A stretch of DNA of 47,835 bases from Chromatiaceae bacterium. Lineage in GTDB: Bacteria; Pseudomonadota; Gammaproteobacteria; Chromatiales; Chromatiaceae. The DNA lies in assembly GCA_003562815.1 (NCBI GenBank), contig PWTO01000098.1, positions 1 to 47,835 on the forward strand, written 5' to 3'. Below are positions 433-11,983 of the stretch, in pieces. Both the position numbers and the translations under genes were made by a program. The notes beneath the pieces were generated by a model. The model saw nothing but the letters and a program-made list of their open reading frames with translations, was not told the DNA's origin and made no database searches. Numbering within the stretch: the first letter of the stretch is position 1; each line of letters begins with the position of its first letter.

Positions 433-544
433 CGGCAACTCTCCAGTAAATCAGTAAACAGTTAGGTGCTGATCGAAGTCGGCGAAGCCGGCAAACGCGC
501 GCGGCGCGCTCTGCCGGTGTCCACCGCCGATCTGGGACGACCCT

Positions 545-1801
545 TTAGCCGGCAGCCTTCTCGGCCTGGCGCTCGAACCACTGCTCGGCGGCCTCGTCCC
601 AGCCGTCCATGCGGACGTAGGAGCTTTGGCGCGGATGGCTGAGCATGTTCGGGTCGGGCTCGATGCCGATGCCGTCGAGGAAGTTGGCCAGTCCGATGCG
701 CTCGATCATTTCACCGCAGCGCTCGTGCTCAAGACCATTCTCGGCCCAGAAGTCGATGATGCTCTCCGCCATCTCGACCATCTCCTCGTAATCTTCGGCG
801 GTGTCGAGCTTGCGGAAGGGCACGATCACGGTGCCCATCAGATCGCCGATCTTGAGCGTCCGTTTACCGCCGATGAGGATGGTCACACCCTTGTCGTCGC
901 CGGGATGCAGCGCCTTCGGCATCACGTTCAGACAGTGCATGCAGCGCACGCAGTCGCGGTTATTCACCGCCAGGGTGTCGTCGTCGTTGAGCGACAGCGC
1001 CTGGGTCGGACAGCGCGTGATGACATTGTCGATGATGTACTGGCGGCCCTTGGCCTGGACGTAGGCCTTGACCTCGTCCTGATCGACCTTCATGTCATCG
1101 CGCCAGGTGCCGAGCACGGCGAAGTCCGAGCGCTCGATGGCGTTCTGGCAGTCGTTGGCGCAGCCCGAGACCTTGAACTTGAACTTATAGGGCAGCGCCG
1201 GGCGATGGACATCGTCGACGAAGTTGTTGACCAACGCGCGGTGCGCCTTCAGCTCGTTGGTGCAAGACATCTCGCAGCGCGCCGCGCCGACACAGGACAT
1301 CGCGGTGCGCACGCAGGGGCCAGCGCCGCCGAGATCCCAGCCGTATTCGTTGATTTCGTCGAAGAAATGCTGCGTGGCATTGGTGTCGGCACCGATGAAC
1401 ATGATGTTGCCGGTCTGACCGTGGAAGGTGACCAGGCCCGAGCCATGCTTCTCCCAGCTATCGGCGAGCTGGCGCAGCATCGCGGTGCTGTAGTGGTTAC
1501 CCGCCGGCGGCTGCACGCGCAGGGTGTGGAATTCCCTGGATTTCGGGAAGGCCTTACCGACCTCGGAGAAGCGCGGAATGATGCCGCCGCCATAGCCATA
1601 GACCGAGACGGTACCGCCCTTCCAGTAACCCTTACGGGTCTCGTAGGAGTGTTCGAGCTGACCGAGCAGGTCGTTGGTCAGCGCATTGATGCGCGCGTCG
1701 CCGTGCTCGTCGCGAAGACGCTTGATGCCCGAGATGAAGCTCGGCCAGGGACCGTCCTCAAGTTGGTCGAGCATCGGAGTTTGGTGCTTGTCGAGGGCCA
1801 T
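545..1801 (-). CDS. dsrA: Dissimilatory sulfite reductase alpha subunit (oxidative rDsr type)
   Basis: Alpha subunit of siroheme sulfite reductase; in sulfur oxidisers the DsrAB complex works in reverse, releasing sulfite from sulfur delivered on DsrC. The 418-residue product has the siroheme-[4Fe-4S] cysteines in CVRTAMSCVGAARCEMSC (about residues 163-180) plus CANDC (214-218), and an inserted ferredoxin domain with CVRCMHC near residue 300. Length matches the family. The track ORF starts further upstream at 1879, but ATG 1801 has a strong ribosome site (TAGGAGAGAT) and the residues before it are low-complexity, so I chose 1801. It heads a dsr operon running off the left edge. Subunit identity is certain; the oxidative direction is inferred from similarity to purple sulfur bacteria and the genomic context. 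Confidence 0.97.
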   Translation of the reverse strand: MALDKHQTPMLDQLEDGPWPSFISGIKRLRDEHGDARINALTNDLLGQLEHSYETRKGYWKGGTVSVYGYGGGIIPRFSEVGKAFPKSREFHTLRVQPPAGNHYSTAMLRQLADSWEKHGSGLVTFHGQTGNIMFIGADTNATQHFFDEINEYGWDLGGAGPCVRTAMSCVGAARCEMSCTNELKAHRALVNNFVDDVHRPALPYKFKFKVSGCANDCQNAIERSDFAVLGTWRDDMKVDQDEVKAYVQAKGRQYIIDNVITRCPTQALSLNDDDTLAVNNRDCVRCMHCLNVMPKALHPGDDKGVTILIGGKRTLKIGDLMGTVIVPFRKLDTAEDYEEMVEMAESIIDFWAENGLEHERCGEMIERIGLANFLDGIGIEPDPNMLSHPRQSSYVRMDGWDEAAEQWFERQAEKAAG

Positions 1802-1933
1802 GTCGCTATCTCTCCTATCGAGAAACGTCGTGGTAAGACACAGATCGCATTCGGATTCGTTCGCGGCGCCGCGTGCCACGGAGCTGCACTATACGGGGCG
1901 ACAGGCCCAGCCGGAAACCGCCCCTTAGGGAGA

Positions 1934-1966
1934 GAGGGGTAGGCCCCTCATATCCCCTTGGGGATA
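1934..1966 (-). promoter_or_regulatory. Tandem hairpins in the dsrA leader
   Basis: Two adjacent inverted repeats lie 130-165 bases before the dsrA start: TATCCCC-AA-GGGGATA (1951-1966) and GAGGGG-CCTA-CCCCTC (1934-1949), read on the minus strand. A further CCCTAAGGGG follows. The repeated CCCC and GGGG tracts could pair in more than one way, so this may be a structured mRNA leader or, alternatively, a protein-binding operator. Function is inference only. Confidence 0.45.
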
Positions 1967-2031
1967 GTTGACAGCCACACTTTTTCTCTTTCTCGATCAG
2001 CCACCTAGTACAGGGTCTTGGCACCGATCAT

Positions 2032-2058
2032 GGGGCGCAGAGCATAAGCCTGCGCCCC
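2032..2058. repeat. Perfect 9-bp inverted repeat around the dsrA -10 box
   Basis: GGGGCGCAG (2032-2040) and CTGCGCCCC (2050-2058) are exact reverse complements separated by 9 bases that contain the -10 hexamer. No T-run follows on either strand, so a terminator is unlikely. An operator for a dimeric regulator is the simplest reading; the regulator is unknown. Confidence 0.55.
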
Positions 2059-2069
2059 GCCTATGTCAA
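2041..2069 (-). promoter_or_regulatory. Candidate sigma-70 promoter of dsrA
   Basis: On the minus strand a perfect -35 TTGACA (2064-2069) is followed after exactly 17 bases by TATGCT (2041-2046). A transcript starting near 2034 would have a leader of about 230 bases before dsrA. The -10 box sits in the loop of a perfect inverted repeat (see separate entry), which suggests a regulator can occlude it. Confidence 0.6.
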
Positions 2070-2222
2070 CATATCCTAATATTCCAATAGCTTATTTGGG
2101 CTGGACTCGCCGCCCCCAGCCGCCGCCCCAGCGCGCGAGTTGTTTTTATGCCGTTGCGGCTTTACCTGCTCGGGACGACGTCGACGCGCTCGGCGCACTT
2201 CAGTCAGAGAGGTTCAGACCGC

Positions 2223-2414
2223 ATGCTCAAGCTCAGCGATATTCTCGTCTCCAACAAGGAACTCGAGCGCTTCGAGGACCTGATCCCCGCGATTCAGGAG
2301 GTTGCGCGGCACGGTGAACGCTTCTTCCGCATCGACGTCAAGCCGCCGTTTTCCGACACACCGGATGACTGGGAGGATCGACTTGAAGCGGCATTCAGCG
2401 GTCTTGTGCGGTGA
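2223..2414 (+). CDS. Small acidic hypothetical protein (63 aa)
   Basis: I do not recognise this protein. The product begins MLKLSDILVSNKELERFEDL and is probably a small soluble helical protein; it has no signal peptide, cysteine or membrane segment. The track starts the frame at 2148, but ATG 2223 has a plausible GAGAGG site and the earlier residues are not protein-like, so I use 2223. It is the first gene of a plus-strand set diverging from dsrA and is followed after 74 bases by the helical-repeat protein. It could be an accessory subunit of that set or an independent small protein. Its codon use and the conserved-looking DVKPPFSDTPDDWEDRL segment support coding. Confidence 0.6.
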   Translation: MLKLSDILVSNKELERFEDLIPAIQEVARHGERFFRIDVKPPFSDTPDDWEDRLEAAFSGLVR

Positions 2415-2488
2415 CGCGATCGTCGCGGAATCAGGCAAACATTCATAAAGAGGACAGCGCCGTTACGCGGCGACAAAGAGCAGTTGCC

Positions 2489-3208
2489 ATGAAGCATTTT
2501 GACATCACCCGGACCCAGTTAGCAGACACCGCCGCCGACTCCATCGCCAATCGCGCCGCCGAAGAAGCGGCCCTGGAATCGCACCTCCTGGCCTTGGAGG
2601 AGCAATACGCCACGCTGCGGCGCATCGGAGCCGATCGCGTGCAGCTCGCCGAGCTGCAACTGCAACAGGCCCGCACCCTGGTCGGGCTGGGCCGCGGCGA
2701 GGAGGCCTGGCCGCAGGCGCGCGAAGCCTTCGAGGCGTTCATCGCTAGCGACGCCTTTGAGTCTGCGGCCGATTGCTGCGATGTCCTGTTCCGCGCCGAG
2801 CAAGCGCAATCGCTCACGGCCCTTGGCCAGGGCATTTGGCTCGCGGTCACCTACCCCATCGATGTCGAACTCTCGATCGAACTTCTGTCGCACATCGTCG
2901 ATGAGACGCCGGATGATGCCGACGGTGCCGCCGTCGCCGCGACCACCGCGTTGTTTCTCGCCGATGTCCGCGCCGAGGGTGTGCAACGCGAGAACTTGCG
3001 TTTCTTCGCCTCGCAGATCCTCGCCGATGTCGCCCGCCGTCACAGTGGCGTCGAGTCGCAAGAGGCCTTCGATCGCTGGCGCGATCGACTGGAATTGCGC
3101 GAGCCCGAGAAATTCCTGGTCCGGCTGCGCAACGTGGTCGATGTCTTGGTGCAAGACGAGTGGTGGTTCGATCGCGACGCCCTGCAAGGCAAACTCCCCG
3201 TCAACTGA
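2489..3208 (+). CDS. Helical, TPR-like protein of unknown function beside Cas6-like gene
   Basis: The 239-residue product is not recognised by name. It is alanine/leucine/glutamate-rich throughout and reads as consecutive amphipathic helices, as in tetratricopeptide-type scaffolds (for example RVQLAELQLQQARTLVGLGR near residue 50). There is no signal peptide and no catalytic motif. I start it at ATG 2489 (MKHFDITRTQ), 26 codons into the track ORF, because the upstream part is low complexity and overlaps the previous gene; an AAAGAG stretch lies before it. The stop is 10 bases before the Cas6-like gene, so the two are very probably co-transcribed and their products may act together. That partnership is inference. 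Confidence 0.75.
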   Translation: MKHFDITRTQLADTAADSIANRAAEEAALESHLLALEEQYATLRRIGADRVQLAELQLQQARTLVGLGRGEEAWPQAREAFEAFIASDAFESAADCCDVLFRAEQAQSLTALGQGIWLAVTYPIDVELSIELLSHIVDETPDDADGAAVAATTALFLADVRAEGVQRENLRFFASQILADVARRHSGVESQEAFDRWRDRLELREPEKFLVRLRNVVDVLVQDEWWFDRDALQGKLPVN

Positions 3209-3218
3209 GGACCGATCC

Positions 3219-3911
3219 ATGTTCTGGCAAGACGCCGAGTCGGAGCCCCAGCCCCGAGTTCCCGATGATGTCATCGACCTGATGTTCCCCTTGCAACGGT
3301 GCAAATCGCTGCCTGTGGATCACGCCCACGCGCTCTCCGAGGCGCTGATCGGCGCCGTTCCCTGGCTGGCCGACGAACCGCGAGTGGCGATTCATACGAT
3401 CCACGTCGCGGGTTCGCAAAACGGGTGGGAACGACCCACGCACGGTCGCGAGCAGTCGCTGCTGCCCTCGCGCCGCACCAAGCTCGGCATCCGCATCCCA
3501 CGCACCCGCCTTGACGACCTGAAGGCCGCGCTCGAAGGGCGCGCCCTCGACATCGGAGGCTCAAGCCTCACCCTTGGCCCAGCGAAGGAACGCCCGCTCA
3601 GCGCGGAAAAAACCCTCTTTGCCCGCTATGTCGTTGCCCATGCCGACGAGGACGAGGATCGGTTTCTACGCCAGATCGCCAGCGAACTCGCGCCGCGCGG
3701 CATCAAGCTCCGTAAGGCCCTGTGCGGCAAGACCCTGTCCCTGAGCACCCCCGCCGGCCCTCTGCTGACGCGCAGCCTGATGCTCGCCGAACTCAGCCTT
3801 GAGGACGCCATCGCGCTCCAACAACAGGGCATCGGCGCTCACCAGACCATGGGCTGTGGGATCTTTCTGCCGCATAAGGGCATCGAGGCGGTTGCCCAGG
3901 CGGCCAGCTAA
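3219..3911 (+). CDS. Stand-alone Cas6/Cmx6-like CRISPR RNA endonuclease homologue
   Basis: The 230-residue product resembles the Cas6 proteins assigned to the MYXAN subtype (Cmx6), RAMP-fold enzymes that cut pre-crRNA. Recognisable blocks in order are DHAHALSEALIGAVPWL (34-50), an SRRTKLGIRIP strand (84-94), LEGRALDIGGSSLTLG (105-120), LFARYVV (133-139) and the C-terminal glycine-rich loop GIGAHQTMGCGIFLPHK (204-220) typical of the family. Histidines 35, 37, 59 and 62 are candidates for the catalytic residue; I cannot say which. ATG 3219 follows the previous stop by 10 bases with TGAGGA as ribosome site. No other cas gene or repeat array is visible in 47.8 kb, so its RNA target is unknown. 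It could be a domesticated endoribonuclease or act on a distant array. Confidence 0.8.
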   Translation: MFWQDAESEPQPRVPDDVIDLMFPLQRCKSLPVDHAHALSEALIGAVPWLADEPRVAIHTIHVAGSQNGWERPTHGREQSLLPSRRTKLGIRIPRTRLDDLKAALEGRALDIGGSSLTLGPAKERPLSAEKTLFARYVVAHADEDEDRFLRQIASELAPRGIKLRKALCGKTLSLSTPAGPLLTRSLMLAELSLEDAIALQQQGIGAHQTMGCGIFLPHKGIEAVAQAAS

Positions 3912-4094: not shown

Positions 4095-4433
4095 ATGGCG
4101 ATCGAAGTAAACGGCAAGCACATCGAGACCACCGAGTCCGGGTTCCTGGTCAACCCGCTCGACTGGGACGAGGATGTCGCCAAGGCGGTAGCCGATAGCG
4201 AGGGTATCGAGCTGACCGAACGCCACTGGGATGTCATCAACTATCTGCGCGATGAGTATCTCAATAACAACCAGAACCAACCCATGGAGCGGGCACTCCT
4301 GAAGGATATGGGCAAGAAGTGGGGCAGTAAGCCGAGCAGCAAGGAGGTCTACCAGCTCTTCCCGCTGGCACCGACCAAGCAAGGCACCAAGATCGCCGGC
4401 CTGCCCGAGGTTCATCGCAAAGGCGGTTACTGA
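4095..4433 (+). CDS. DsrC/TusE-fold protein lacking both conserved cysteines (RspA type)
   Basis: The 112-residue product has the DsrC/TusE fold signature: a DGK-like start (VNGKHIETTESGFLV), LTERHWDVINYLRDEYL, a KDMGKKWGSKPSSKEVYQLFP core and KQGTKIAGLPEVHRKGGY at the end. In true DsrC the C-terminal arm carries a penultimate cysteine and a second cysteine in KQACRFAGLP; here both are absent (the arm reads KQGTKIAGLP and ends in tyrosine). It therefore cannot carry the DsrC trisulfide and fits the cysteine-free RspA group proposed as regulatory homologues. AAGAGGAG precedes ATG 4095. It lies 2.3 kb from dsrA and downstream of the Cas6-like gene. It is surely not the sulfur-carrier DsrC itself; its role is unknown. 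Confidence 0.88.
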   Translation: MAIEVNGKHIETTESGFLVNPLDWDEDVAKAVADSEGIELTERHWDVINYLRDEYLNNNQNQPMERALLKDMGKKWGSKPSSKEVYQLFPLAPTKQGTKIAGLPEVHRKGGY

Positions 4434-8549: not shown

Positions 8550-9281
8550 ATGCCCATCATCGCCACGCAACCGAGTGTTCGAGTCGTCACGCTGAGGATC
8601 GATGGTCACGATCTCTCGGCGCGCGAAGACGAAACCATCATCGAAGTGTGCCGGGAGAACAAGATCCCGATCCCCAGCCTGTGCTGGATGGACGGGCTCT
8701 CCGTCATTGGCGCCTGTCGGCTCTGCATGGTCGAGGTCGCCGGCCAAAACCGCCTGCTCGCGGCCTGCGCCACCCGCGTCGCCGAGGGCATGGAGGTCAC
8801 GACCAATTCCGAGACGCTGCAGCGCTATCGGCGTACCCTGGTCGAGCTGCTGTTCGCCGAGCGTAACCATATCTGCTCGGTCTGCGTCTCCAACGGCCAC
8901 TGCGAGCTGCAATGGCTGGCCATGGCCTGTGGCGTCGATCATGTGCGCATGCCCTACCGCAATCACGGCTACGCGGTCGATAGCACGCACGAGATGTTCC
9001 GCCTCGATCACAACCGCTGCGTGCTCTGCAACCGCTGCGTGCGCGTCTGCGACGAGATCGAGGGCGCCCACACCTGGGATGTGATGGGCCGCGGCAGCGA
9101 CTGTCAGGTCATCACCGATCTGGCCAGACCCTGGGGCGAGAGCGACACCTGCACGAGCTGTGGCAAATGCGTGCAGGTCTGCCCGACCGGCGCCTTGGTC
9201 AAGCAGGGCACTTCGGTCGGAGAAATGGTCAAAGATCAGCACTTCCTGCCGATTCTAGCCCGCCGGAGGTCCGCACGATGA
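8550..9281 (+). CDS. hoxU: Hydrogenase diaphorase-side iron-sulfur subunit HoxU
   Basis: Electron-transfer subunit of bidirectional NAD(P)-linked [NiFe]-hydrogenase (group 3d), homologous to the N-terminal part of NuoG. The 243-residue product has a plant-type [2Fe-2S] domain ([22 protein letters not shown]), the His/Cys cluster region ([15 protein letters not shown]), and two [4Fe-4S] ferredoxin motifs ([11 protein letters not shown] and [14 protein letters not shown]). All expected ligands are present. ATG 8550 gives a normal length. hoxY begins in an ATGA overlap, so translation is coupled. Unusually, neither hoxE nor hoxF precedes it; a zinc-ribbon protein does. Confidence 0.95.
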
Positions 9282-9907
9282 CCGCCCACAGCAACGCACC
9301 GACGACCTTGACACCGTCTCAGCCGCAGGCTCAGCCACAGCCCGCTGCGGGCGCTGAGACGAGCGCTGGCACTGGCAACAAGATCCGGGTCGCGACCATC
9401 TGGCTCGATGGCTGCTCCGGTTGCCATATGTCCTTCCTCGACATGGACGAGCGTCTGGTCGATCTGGCCCAGCAGATCGATATCGTCTACAGCCCGCTCG
9501 TCGATACCAAGACCCTGCCCGATCGGGTCGATGTTGGCATCATCGAGGGCTCGATCAGCAACGAGGAGGATCTGCACAAGGCGAAGCTGTTTCGCGAGCA
9601 TTGCACTCTGCTCATCAGCTTGGGCGACTGCGCGGTCAATGGCAACGTCCCGGCCATGCGCAATCCGTTCAAGCTCGAGAGCGTCTACGAGCGCGCCTAT
9701 CTCGAAAACGTCAACGTCAACCAGCAGATTCCGAGCGTTGGCGTCCCGGCCCTGCTCAAAACGGTCTTGCCGGTGCATGCAGTGGTCACGATCGATGTGT
9801 TCGTCCCCGGGTGTCCGCCGAATGCCGATGTCATCCACTCTGTGCTGAGCGAATTGATCGCCGGTCGCACCCCCGAGCCGCTCAGTCAGACCCGTTTCGG
9901 CGCCTGA
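9278..9907 (+). CDS. hoxY: [NiFe]-hydrogenase small subunit HoxY
   Basis: Small subunit that carries the [4Fe-4S] cluster next to the [NiFe] site and passes electrons to HoxU. The 209-residue product contains [19 protein letters not shown] (about residues 44-62) with the first two cluster cysteines, a third cysteine in [15 protein letters not shown] and the fourth in [11 protein letters not shown]. An N-terminal stretch of about 35 residues rich in Thr, Gln and Pro before [11 protein letters not shown] is longer than I expect for HoxY and has no Tat motif, consistent with a soluble enzyme. It starts at ATG 9278 within the end of hoxU (ATGA). hoxH follows after 34 bases. Confidence 0.95.
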
Positions 9908-9941
9908 ACCCCTTCCACCGCCCCAGCCCGGACCCGCGACC

Positions 9942-11375
9942 ATGAGCCGAACCATCAGCATCGACCCGGTCACCCGCATCGAGGGCCATGCCCGCATCTC
10001 GCTGCAGCTTGCCGACAGCGGCGCGGTCGAGGACGCCAAGTTCCACCTGACCCAGTTTCGCGGCTTCGAGAAGTTTTGCGAGGGCCGCCCCTACCGCGAG
10101 ATGCCGGCCCTGACTGCGCGCACCTGCGGCATCTGCCCGGTCAGCCATCTGCTGGCCTCCAACAAGGCCTGCGACGACCTGCTCGCGGTGACCATCCCGC
10201 CCACCGCCGAGAAACTGCGCCGGCTGATGAACCTGGCGCAACTGCTGCAATCGCATGCGCTGTCGTTCTTCCACCTCTCCTCGCCCGATTTGCTGCTGGG
10301 CTGGGACTCCGACCCGGCCAAGCGCAACATCTTCGGCGTCATGGCCAAGGACCCGGAGCTGGCCAAGCAAGGCATCAAGCTGCGCCAGATCGGCCAGACC
10401 ATCATCGAGATGCTCGGCGGCAAGAAGATCCATCCGACCTGGGTGGTGCCGGGCGGCGTCAACGAACCGCTCGACAGCGACAAGCGCGAGGCGATGCTGA
10501 ACATGCTGCCGGAGGCGCTGACCATCGCCAAGGACACCTACGCACTGTTCAAGACCATGGTGCCCAAGTTCAAGGACGAGGCCGAGCACTTCGGCACCAT
10601 GCCGACCATGTTCCTGTCGCTGGTCTCGCCCAAGGGACAACTCGAGCACTACGACGGCTTCTTGCGCATCAAAGACGCGCAAGGCCGCATCGTCGAAGAC
10701 AGGGTGCCGCCGTCCGACTACCCGCGCATCATCGGCGAGGCGGTCGAGGACTTCAGCTACATGAAGTTCCCTTACTACAAGCCGCTGGGCTACCCGAACG
10801 GCATCTACCGCGTCGGCCCGCTGGCGCGGCTCAACAATGCCGAGAGCTGCGGCACACCGTTCGCCGATGTCGCCCTGGCCGAGTTCCACATGTTGCAGGA
10901 AGACTCCGGGCCGGTGCGCTCGAGTTTCCACTACCATTACGCGCGCTTGGTCGAGATCATCTTCGCGATCGAGATGATGCAACGGCTGCTCAAAGACCCG
11001 AGCATCCTCGACACGCGGGTGCGCGCCCATGCGCGCGGCAACCGCGACGAGGGCATCGGCGTCGCCGAGGCCCCACGCGGCACTCTGATGCATCACTACA
11101 AGATCGACGAGGCGGGTCTGATCACCTGGGTCGATCTGATCATCGCCACCGGCCACAACAATCTGGCGATGAATCGCAGCATCAAACAGGTCGCCGATGC
11201 CTATGTCGATGGCAACACGCTTTCGGAAGGCATGCTCAATCGGGTCGAAGCGGTGATCCGCTGCTACGATCCCTGCCTCTCCTGTGCCTCGCATGCATTC
11301 GGCCAGATGCCGTTGAGCATCGAGCTGAAGGATGCCTCTGGCGCCGTCATCGATCGCCTGGTGCGCGACGCATGA
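9942..11375 (+). CDS. hoxH: [NiFe]-hydrogenase large subunit HoxH
   Basis: Catalytic subunit of the soluble hydrogenase. The 477-residue product has both active-site cysteine pairs: CGIC (residues 62-65) after RIEGHARISL, and DPCLSCASH (443-451). The 26 residues after His451 (AFGQMPLSIEL...) should be removed by a dedicated endopeptidase once nickel is inserted, and a protease gene follows immediately. Length and motifs match HoxH of group 3d. The start ATG 9942 (MSRTISIDPVTRIEG) has no strong ribosome site. The stop overlaps the start of the protease gene (ATGA). The 470-residue antisense ORF across this gene is a shadow. Confidence 0.97.
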   Translation: MSRTISIDPVTRIEGHARISLQLADSGAVEDAKFHLTQFRGFEKFCEGRPYREMPALTARTCGICPVSHLLASNKACDDLLAVTIPPTAEKLRRLMNLAQLLQSHALSFFHLSSPDLLLGWDSDPAKRNIFGVMAKDPELAKQGIKLRQIGQTIIEMLGGKKIHPTWVVPGGVNEPLDSDKREAMLNMLPEALTIAKDTYALFKTMVPKFKDEAEHFGTMPTMFLSLVSPKGQLEHYDGFLRIKDAQGRIVEDRVPPSDYPRIIGEAVEDFSYMKFPYYKPLGYPNGIYRVGPLARLNNAESCGTPFADVALAEFHMLQEDSGPVRSSFHYHYARLVEIIFAIEMMQRLLKDPSILDTRVRAHARGNRDEGIGVAEAPRGTLMHHYKIDEAGLITWVDLIIATGHNNLAMNRSIKQVADAYVDGNTLSEGMLNRVEAVIRCYDPCLSCASHAFGQMPLSIELKDASGAVIDRLVRDA

Positions 11376-11983
11376 GCGCCACTGCGCCTTGGGGCGATGA
11401 CGGCTCGCACAGCACCGCTGGCGGGTCAGCCCATCCCGAAGAAGGCGCTGCGGCGGCTGCCTTTGCCACCAGCGCCACGAGGCCGCTGCGGGCGCTGGTG
11501 ATCGGCTACGGCAGCCCGATTCGCGGCGACGACGCGCTCGGCCCGCTGGTCGCCGATCAGCTCGAGACGCGCGTCAGCGCCGATCCCGAGCTGAGCGCTC
11601 GGGTCGAGGTCCAGGCGCGCCACATCCTGACCGCCGAGCTGGTCGACGATCTCGCCCGCGCCGAGCGCGTCATCTTCATCGACGCTGCGGCGAATCGAGC
11701 GCCCGGCGAGGTCAGCCGCCAGCGCCTAGCCCCCGATGCCAGCGCCCTCTCGACCATGGCCCACTTCCACGATCCACGCGAGCTGCTCGCCTGGTGTCAG
11801 GCCCTGTATCAACGGGTGCCAGAGACCTGGCTGGTCTCGGCTGGCGGCGCCGACTGGGGCTATGCCTGCTATGCGCTGAGCGAGACGGCGCAGGCAGTAG
11901 TCGCGCCGATGATCGCCGAGGTGCTGAGCCTCGTCGGCGCCGAGCCTGACACCCCTAACACCGGCCCTGAAACCTACTCCTGA
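11372..11983 (+). CDS. Hydrogenase maturation endopeptidase (HyaD/HoxW family)
   Basis: Nickel-dependent check-point protease that cleaves the C-terminal extension of the large subunit. The 203-residue product begins with about 38 Ala/Gly/Ser-rich residues, then the family core: ALVIGYGSPIRGDDALGPLVA (about 41-61), VIFIDAAANRAPGE and MAHFHDPRELL with a potential metal-binding histidine, then WLVSAGGADWGYACYALSE in place of the usual GxEPE-like loop. ATG 11372 overlaps the hoxH stop, so coupling and substrate specificity for HoxH are strongly suggested. HoxW would be a reasonable name, but I leave the symbol empty because the protein is divergent. Confidence 0.88.
   Translation: MSATAPWGDDGSHSTAGGSAHPEEGAAAAAFATSATRPLRALVIGYGSPIRGDDALGPLVADQLETRVSADPELSARVEVQARHILTAELVDDLARAERVIFIDAAANRAPGEVSRQRLAPDASALSTMAHFHDPRELLAWCQALYQRVPETWLVSAGGADWGYACYALSETAQAVVAPMIAEVLSLVGAEPDTPNTGPETYS

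Follow-up and report, generated by a model that had tools for sequence, protein, structure and literature searches.

The location of a gene for a Cas6-like protein beside the dsr genes of a Chromatiaceae bacterium raises the question of what a member of this family does at a sulfur-oxidation locus. Cas6 is the enzyme that produces CRISPR guide RNA, and we know of no role of the Cas6 family besides the cutting of CRISPR RNA. In the window, the whole 47,835-nt stretch of DNA that was analysed, the reverse strand carries dsrA, encoding the alpha subunit of reverse dissimilatory sulfite reductase (545 to 1801; TIGR02064, E=3.3e-198), with dsrB behind it (1 to 432, truncated at the window edge). 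On the forward strand, a block of four genes encodes a 63-aa acidic protein (2223 to 2414) and a 239-aa acidic all-helical protein (2489 to 3208), neither of a known family, the Cas6-like protein of 230 aa (3219 to 3911) and, last in the block, a DsrC-like protein lacking the C-terminal cysteines (4095 to 4433; PF04358, E=8e-36). The open reading frames agree with the positions that the original prediction gave for the first three of these genes, and the 0.4 kb that it placed between them and dsrA was measured as 421 nt from the dsrA start to the 63-aa gene. Its description of a tight operon with a spacing of 10 bases is correct for the gap between the helical and the Cas6-like genes, whereas the 63-aa gene ends 74 nt upstream of the helical gene. 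When compared with Halochromatium relatives, the Cas6-like, helical and 63-aa genes had dN/dS values of 0.10-0.18, 0.05-0.07 and 0.01-0.05, respectively, and therefore all three are under purifying selection. Genes resembling those for the subunits of an NAD-reducing hydrogenase, together with a maturation protease gene, were noticed, by eye only, near the dsr block at 8550 to 11983.

By sequence, fold and candidate active residue, the protein is a member of the Cas6 family that stands outside any CRISPR system. It scored 204.1 bits against the Pfam Cas6 model PF09559 (E=2.6e-60; curated cut-off 26.7) and 110.7 bits against TIGR02807, cas6_cmx6 (curated cut-off 98.85), and the family assignment of the original prediction was thus borne out by both models. 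Its AlphaFold2 model (pLDDT 89.9) has the double ferredoxin-like architecture and the glycine-rich loop of the Cas6 fold, and the best matches of this model in the PDB, searched with Foldseek, were Cas6 proteins, with 8fcu_B at the top (E=3.6e-16, TM 0.72-0.77). His35, a candidate catalytic residue judging from where it sits, at the beginning of the first helix, was present in all 51 dsr-linked and all 12 CRISPR-linked PF09559 proteins compared. Arg92, Gln201 and the residues Gly206, Gly212 and Gly214 of the glycine loop were also kept in both groups; His35, Arg92, Gly206 and Gly212 are invariant within the dsr clade, and the C-terminal loop (GCG) had rightly been called well kept.

The surface of the dsr-linked proteins has been altered while the fold and the candidate active site were retained, because the residues and fold described above are conserved while the basic character was lost and a new loop was added. 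Fourteen residues were invariant or nearly so in the dsr group only: Trp3, His59, His62, Ser66, Asn68, Trp70, Arg72, Pro73, Arg86, Glu146, Lys166, Gly170, Arg185 and Lys220. Several of these lie in loop 59-73 (SxNGWxRP), which is invariant in the dsr clade and missing from CRISPR Cas6s, relative to which residues 70-79 are an insertion. The invariant SxNGWxRP stretch coincides with the lowest-confidence region of the AlphaFold2 model, which would fit a loop that becomes ordered on binding a partner. Two cysteines were gained in the dsr group, Cys28 in 46 of 51 proteins (90%) and Cys169 in 41 of 51 (80%). Furthermore, members of the dsr group range from acidic to neutral (median pI 6.2, net charge -3, n=121), whereas their CRISPR-linked relatives are strongly basic (pI about 10). 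Residues that are basic in the CRISPR group, Arg172 among them, have not been conserved in the dsr group.

The association with dsr genes was found to extend far beyond this contig. Of 210 genomes of the same order, 188 encode PF09559 proteins, almost always in single copy. In a survey of about 110 loci of the order with flanking DNA, the arrangement dsrB-dsrA on one strand and 63-aa, helical, Cas6-like and DsrC-like genes on the other extends from Halochromatium to Sedimenticola, Solemya symbionts and Thiolapillus; dsrA is divergent from the block in nearly all loci, and the helical gene is separated by small median gaps of 23 nt from the gene before it and 28 nt from the gene after it. The exceptions were Thiosymbion, in which the Cas6-like gene occurs without the 63-aa and helical genes, and Achromatium, in which the helical gene is missing. 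For the class as a whole, a profile built from 30 orthologs was run against 369 genomes of 272 genera and many families across Gammaproteobacteria. Full-length, single-copy Cas6-like matches were obtained in 118 of these genomes and dsrA (E<=1e-60) in 117; both were present in 110, the Cas6-like gene only in 8, dsrA only in 7 and neither in 244 (odds ratio 479, Fisher p=1.5e-74, calculated with kinship ignored). Among the eight genomes with the Cas6-like gene only, at least two carry a dsrA fragment at a contig edge beside the block, and in four the block reaches a contig end. Where both genes were on the same contig, 80 of 82 pairs were adjacent and divergent. The original prediction that the gene is built into a sulfur-oxidation locus is therefore supported by co-occurrence as well as by position, and the same block recurs across the Gammaproteobacteria. 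Its term "orphan" undersells a conserved member of the dsr neighborhood, and the interval that it described left out the DsrC-like gene.

Three remoter matches in a phylum sample (E 1e-41 to 1e-49) were likewise accompanied by a divergent dsrA, a DsrC-like gene and a TauD-type gene, and no matches outside Gammaproteobacteria were seen in this sample, for which the number of other classes is unstated. A horizontal or viral origin was considered and rejected: the dsr-linked protein had no match in phages, and the plasmid matches were CRISPR Cas6s only, at 25-29% identity. Reduced genomes of 1.0-1.1 Mb and 33-34% G+C retain the Cas6-like gene next to dsrA (L162, L163). This retention, together with the dN/dS of the gene and its presence in more than 180 genomes of one order, refutes the notion of a neutral passenger or an annotation artefact, a negligible possibility for which nothing speaks beyond the family name. 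In a 1.4-Mb genome (L164:7779-9174), a lone Cas6-like gene is divergent from an apparent RNase III gene (rnc-era), 41 kb away from dsr.

The most obvious function for such a protein would be to mature CRISPR RNA in trans for arrays located elsewhere in the genome. Family membership is in accord with this, and so is the own genome of the window, in which another contig (L001, G000 contig C3), the one contig outside the window to which our view of arrays was limited, carries an array of 36-nt repeats (repeat GTCTCAATCCCCTTCATAGCGGGGCAGCGTTCAGAC; 1-303) followed by cas1 with a different cas2-like gene on either side and by a csx-like gene (465-3252), while the dsr-linked protein is the only PF09559 protein encoded. 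However, this genome also encodes a separate classical Cas6 (PF10040, 63 bits), followed by a csx-like gene (L200, G000 contig C228, 241-2484), so that the array and cas1 are not left without a Cas6 of their own. As had been predicted, no CRISPR-like array was found in the 47,835-nt window, and cas3, cmx8, cas7 and cas5 were absent beside the Cas6-like gene at this and related loci. The gene is not associated with cas1, which was found in 121 of 188 Cas6-positive and in 10 of 22 Cas6-negative genomes of the order (p=0.10), leaving 67 Cas6-positive genomes without cas1. The same was true of 16 of 26 further genomes with the Cas6-like gene, several of them single-contig and all five genomes of 1.0-1.1 Mb among them. 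Moreover, PF09559 proteins that are genuinely linked to CRISPR form another clade. They occur as a second copy 7-9 kb from cas1 in five Chromatiales genomes (L113-L117), and also next to cas3 on cyanobacterial plasmids, and in a maximum-likelihood tree 51 dsr-linked and 12 CRISPR-linked proteins were split by a single branch with a support of 99/99. The tree is unrooted and therefore does not specify the order of dsr and CRISPR use. We consider a trans-acting CRISPR role very improbable. Since the gene is kept even in tiny symbiont genomes without CRISPR genes, the dsr-linked protein probably has a different job, and it is almost certain that it represents a distinct, conserved and CRISPR-independent subfamily within the gammaproteobacterial oxidative dsr locus, usually accompanied by a DsrC paralog and the 63-aa and helical proteins and divergent from dsrAB.

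The other products of the block were characterized as well. The 63-aa protein, for which 80 distinct orthologs were collected, has the shared motif LS..F..D..P....TP..WE..LE..F and no match in Pfam, NCBIfam or PHROG; the sole match of its profile in the PDB, a designed TIM barrel, was dismissed as chance. The helical protein (87 orthologs) had been called TPR-like. Its AlphaFold2 model is confidently all-helical (pLDDT 91.3), but no TPR or other Pfam or NCBIfam family was matched and Foldseek gave no match at E<=0.001, and "all-helical" is as much of that description as can be retained. Where the helical gene is not adjacent, it was encoded elsewhere in 10 of the 14 genomes tested and absent from the two smallest. 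The DsrC-like gene follows the Cas6-like gene in most loci, and its product is presumably of the RspA-like kind. The C-terminal 25 residues are free of cysteine in all 80 distinct DsrC-like proteins encoded adjacent to the Cas6-like gene, and therefore these proteins cannot carry sulfur as a persulfide in the way that DsrC does. Other genes are found in the vicinity of the block. In 26 of 78 loci (for example, L051:7901-8824), the block is headed by a gene for a TauD-family Fe(II)/2-oxoglutarate dioxygenase, located between dsrA and the 63-aa gene; this gene was lost in the clade of the window. In a few loci, genes for a NarX/NarL-like kinase and regulator and a rhodanese come after the block, in one case right behind the DsrC-like gene (L185:3009-5494), and NarX/NarL-related regulators were seen near the block in six other loci.

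The suggestion that the protein acts on cellular RNA, for instance the dsr leader, was pursued by a search for conserved targets. This search, which included the dsrA leader, yielded no RNA hairpin shared throughout the clade, and an Rfam scan gave no match. Strong intercistronic hairpins of very variable sequence are present in most species in the dsrA-dsrB and dsrC-dsrM gaps (for example, L033:7033-7140 and L033:4194-4381), but they are missing from two reduced genomes that keep the Cas6-like gene and therefore were rejected as an obligatory target. From the leader and intercistronic results together, no universal RNA target was found.

The dsrA upstream region does contain a conserved element, a palindrome TATCCC-N4-GGGATA at 1951 to 1966. 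This palindrome recurs across the order: 52 of 78 loci have an exact copy, and most of the others deviate at no more than one position. The palindrome of the window is the sole copy in the 3.2-Mb genome and did not occur in shuffles of the window. On the dsrA strand, it is followed on the 3' side by a CCCCC..GTGGA(R)T-like box and a TATA-like element, which in many loci lies about 17-20 nt past the box and in the window is aligned with TATAGT (1888 to 1893, reverse strand), a candidate -10 element for dsrA. A second sigma-70-like promoter candidate directed toward dsrA, TTGACA-17-TATGCT (2041 to 2069, reverse strand; 10 of 12 matches, with a mean of 0.2 in shuffles), is conserved just among the closest relatives, in which the palindrome could therefore still be transcribed. 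As an RNA hairpin and Cas6 substrate, the palindrome was rejected for several reasons: the spacing is fixed and the arms are invariant with no compensating changes, singly changed sites were about equally often wobble-compatible and broken on the dsrA strand, and the element is located upstream of the promoter-like elements and is unique in the genome. It is probably a DNA operator bound by a transcription factor specific to dsr, perhaps a regulator of the NarL type given the 7-2-7 layout of the site. Neither action on RNA nor the dsr leader as its target is thus borne out: the leader has no conserved hairpin, its palindrome is better read as an operator, and the dsr-linked proteins lack the basic pI of CRISPR Cas6s.

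In Allochromatium vinosum, transcripts of dsrEFH and dsrC are more abundant than those of dsrA despite a single transcription unit, and further promoters are found at dsrC and dsrS only (PMC3397948, PMC3368242), and therefore there is room for control at the RNA level. Our best guess, to which we give about even odds, is that the block serves specifically to regulate the dsr genes after transcription. Its Cas6-like protein would bind RNA of the dsr operon and, because His35 is invariant, may also cut it; the DsrC-like protein, being unable to transfer sulfur itself, would sense the state of the sulfur-relay proteins, while the 63-aa and helical proteins, both acidic, would act as adaptors. Control at the RNA level is favored because the fold and His35 are kept, the gene has the position of a regulator and the dsr transcripts of A. 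vinosum are unequal; adjacent and divergent is how the genes of a regulator and its target are usually arranged. Co-occurrence with dsrA, retention in the 1.0-1.1-Mb genomes without cas1 and the 99/99 monophyly support this reading as well, while the acidic pI, the lost basic positions, the lack of a clade-wide hairpin and the empty Rfam scan count against it. More tentatively, a Cas6 might have been recruited to core energy metabolism such that sulfur-responsive cutting or binding of dsr mRNA, controlled by the cysteine-less DsrC paralog, sets the ratio and level of the Dsr proteins.

The loss of the basic surface and the gain of a new invariant loop make a role at the protein level a serious rival, and the main one, though one less likely than not. 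The Cas6 fold would have been reused as a protein-binding Dsr accessory that has given up RNA binding, for instance in the maturation or handling of DsrAB/DsrC together with the DsrC-like protein. The tight pairing with a DsrC paralog, a co-occurrence with dsrA as strict as that of a pathway component and the gained cysteines Cys28 and Cys169 are all in keeping with such an accessory. A pure protein binder would have no need of His35 and the glycine loop, which are kept without exception, and the divergent position is more typical of regulators. It is also conceivable, but improbable, that the protein acts on tRNA or another general RNA with the DsrC/TusE-like protein in RNA modification linked to sulfur relay. 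The DsrC homolog TusE hands sulfur to MnmA for tRNA thiolation (PMC3397948), and the Cas6 fold binds RNA hairpins. However, the adjacent DsrC-like proteins would not be able to deliver sulfur, and tRNA thiolation is general, whereas the Cas6-like gene tracks dsrA. Control of dsr RNA by the module is therefore the reading we prefer, at the strength given above.

No literature linking Cas6 with dsr was found in a search that mostly excluded subscription papers, so that an earlier mention is possible. In the Thiodictyon genome, a DsrC-like gene near the dsr cluster was noted and the Cas6-like gene went unremarked (PMC5944118); the same holds for Thiocapsa bogorovii, in which the DsrC-family gene LT988_06690 is listed at a distance of five locus tags from dsrA (PMC10892978). 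Cas6 is not mentioned in a study from 2024 on the evolution of Dsr (PMC11406059). The present results indicate that reverse Dsr, a main route of sulfur oxidation in phototrophic and symbiotic bacteria, is almost always accompanied by a member of this Cas6 subfamily, whether or not the genome has CRISPR. Should the protein act on RNA, it would be a CRISPR-type ribonuclease serving metabolism and would provide a handle on the unequal dsr transcript levels; if it acts on proteins, it would be a new component of an intensively studied pathway. In addition, TIGR02807, the equivalog model for the I-MYXAN Cas6, accepts the dsr-linked protein, and therefore CRISPR surveys would count false CRISPR genes. 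More than 180 genomes of one order carry a gene that this NCBI model would probably label as a CRISPR protein, which misleads such surveys.

When compared with known systems, the protein is most like the type I-MYXAN Cas6/Cmx6 (TIGR02807, PF09559), for example that of cyanobacterial plasmids, with which it shares the fold, the length, His35, Arg92 and the GxG..GCGxF loop. In contrast to the I-MYXAN systems, such as that of pSYLB, the dsr-linked gene has no neighboring cas3, cas5, cas7, cas8 or array, and its product belongs to a separate clade, has the extra loop 59-73, is acidic rather than basic and tracks dsrA rather than cas1. The Cas6 of the type I-B CAST Cascade (PDB 8fcj, 8fcu) is the top structural match (TM 0.72-0.77; profile E=4e-23), but it has Asn at the position of the invariant His35 of the dsr clade and does not have the SxNGWxRP loop. 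The protein encoded at the end of the block is a homolog of the DsrC/TusE family (PF04358) that differs from DsrC in that both C-terminal cysteines are absent from all 80 distinct adjacent homologs. The block is linked to the oxidative dsr locus, as are DsrR, DsrS and the DNA binder DsrC of A. vinosum; DsrR has been reported to participate in the regulation of sulfur oxidation (PMC11406059), and DsrC binds DNA upstream of dsr (PMC5944118). The genes for these three proteins lie inside dsrABEFHCMKLJOPNRS, whereas the Cas6-like block, previously undescribed as a part of the system, diverges from dsrA.
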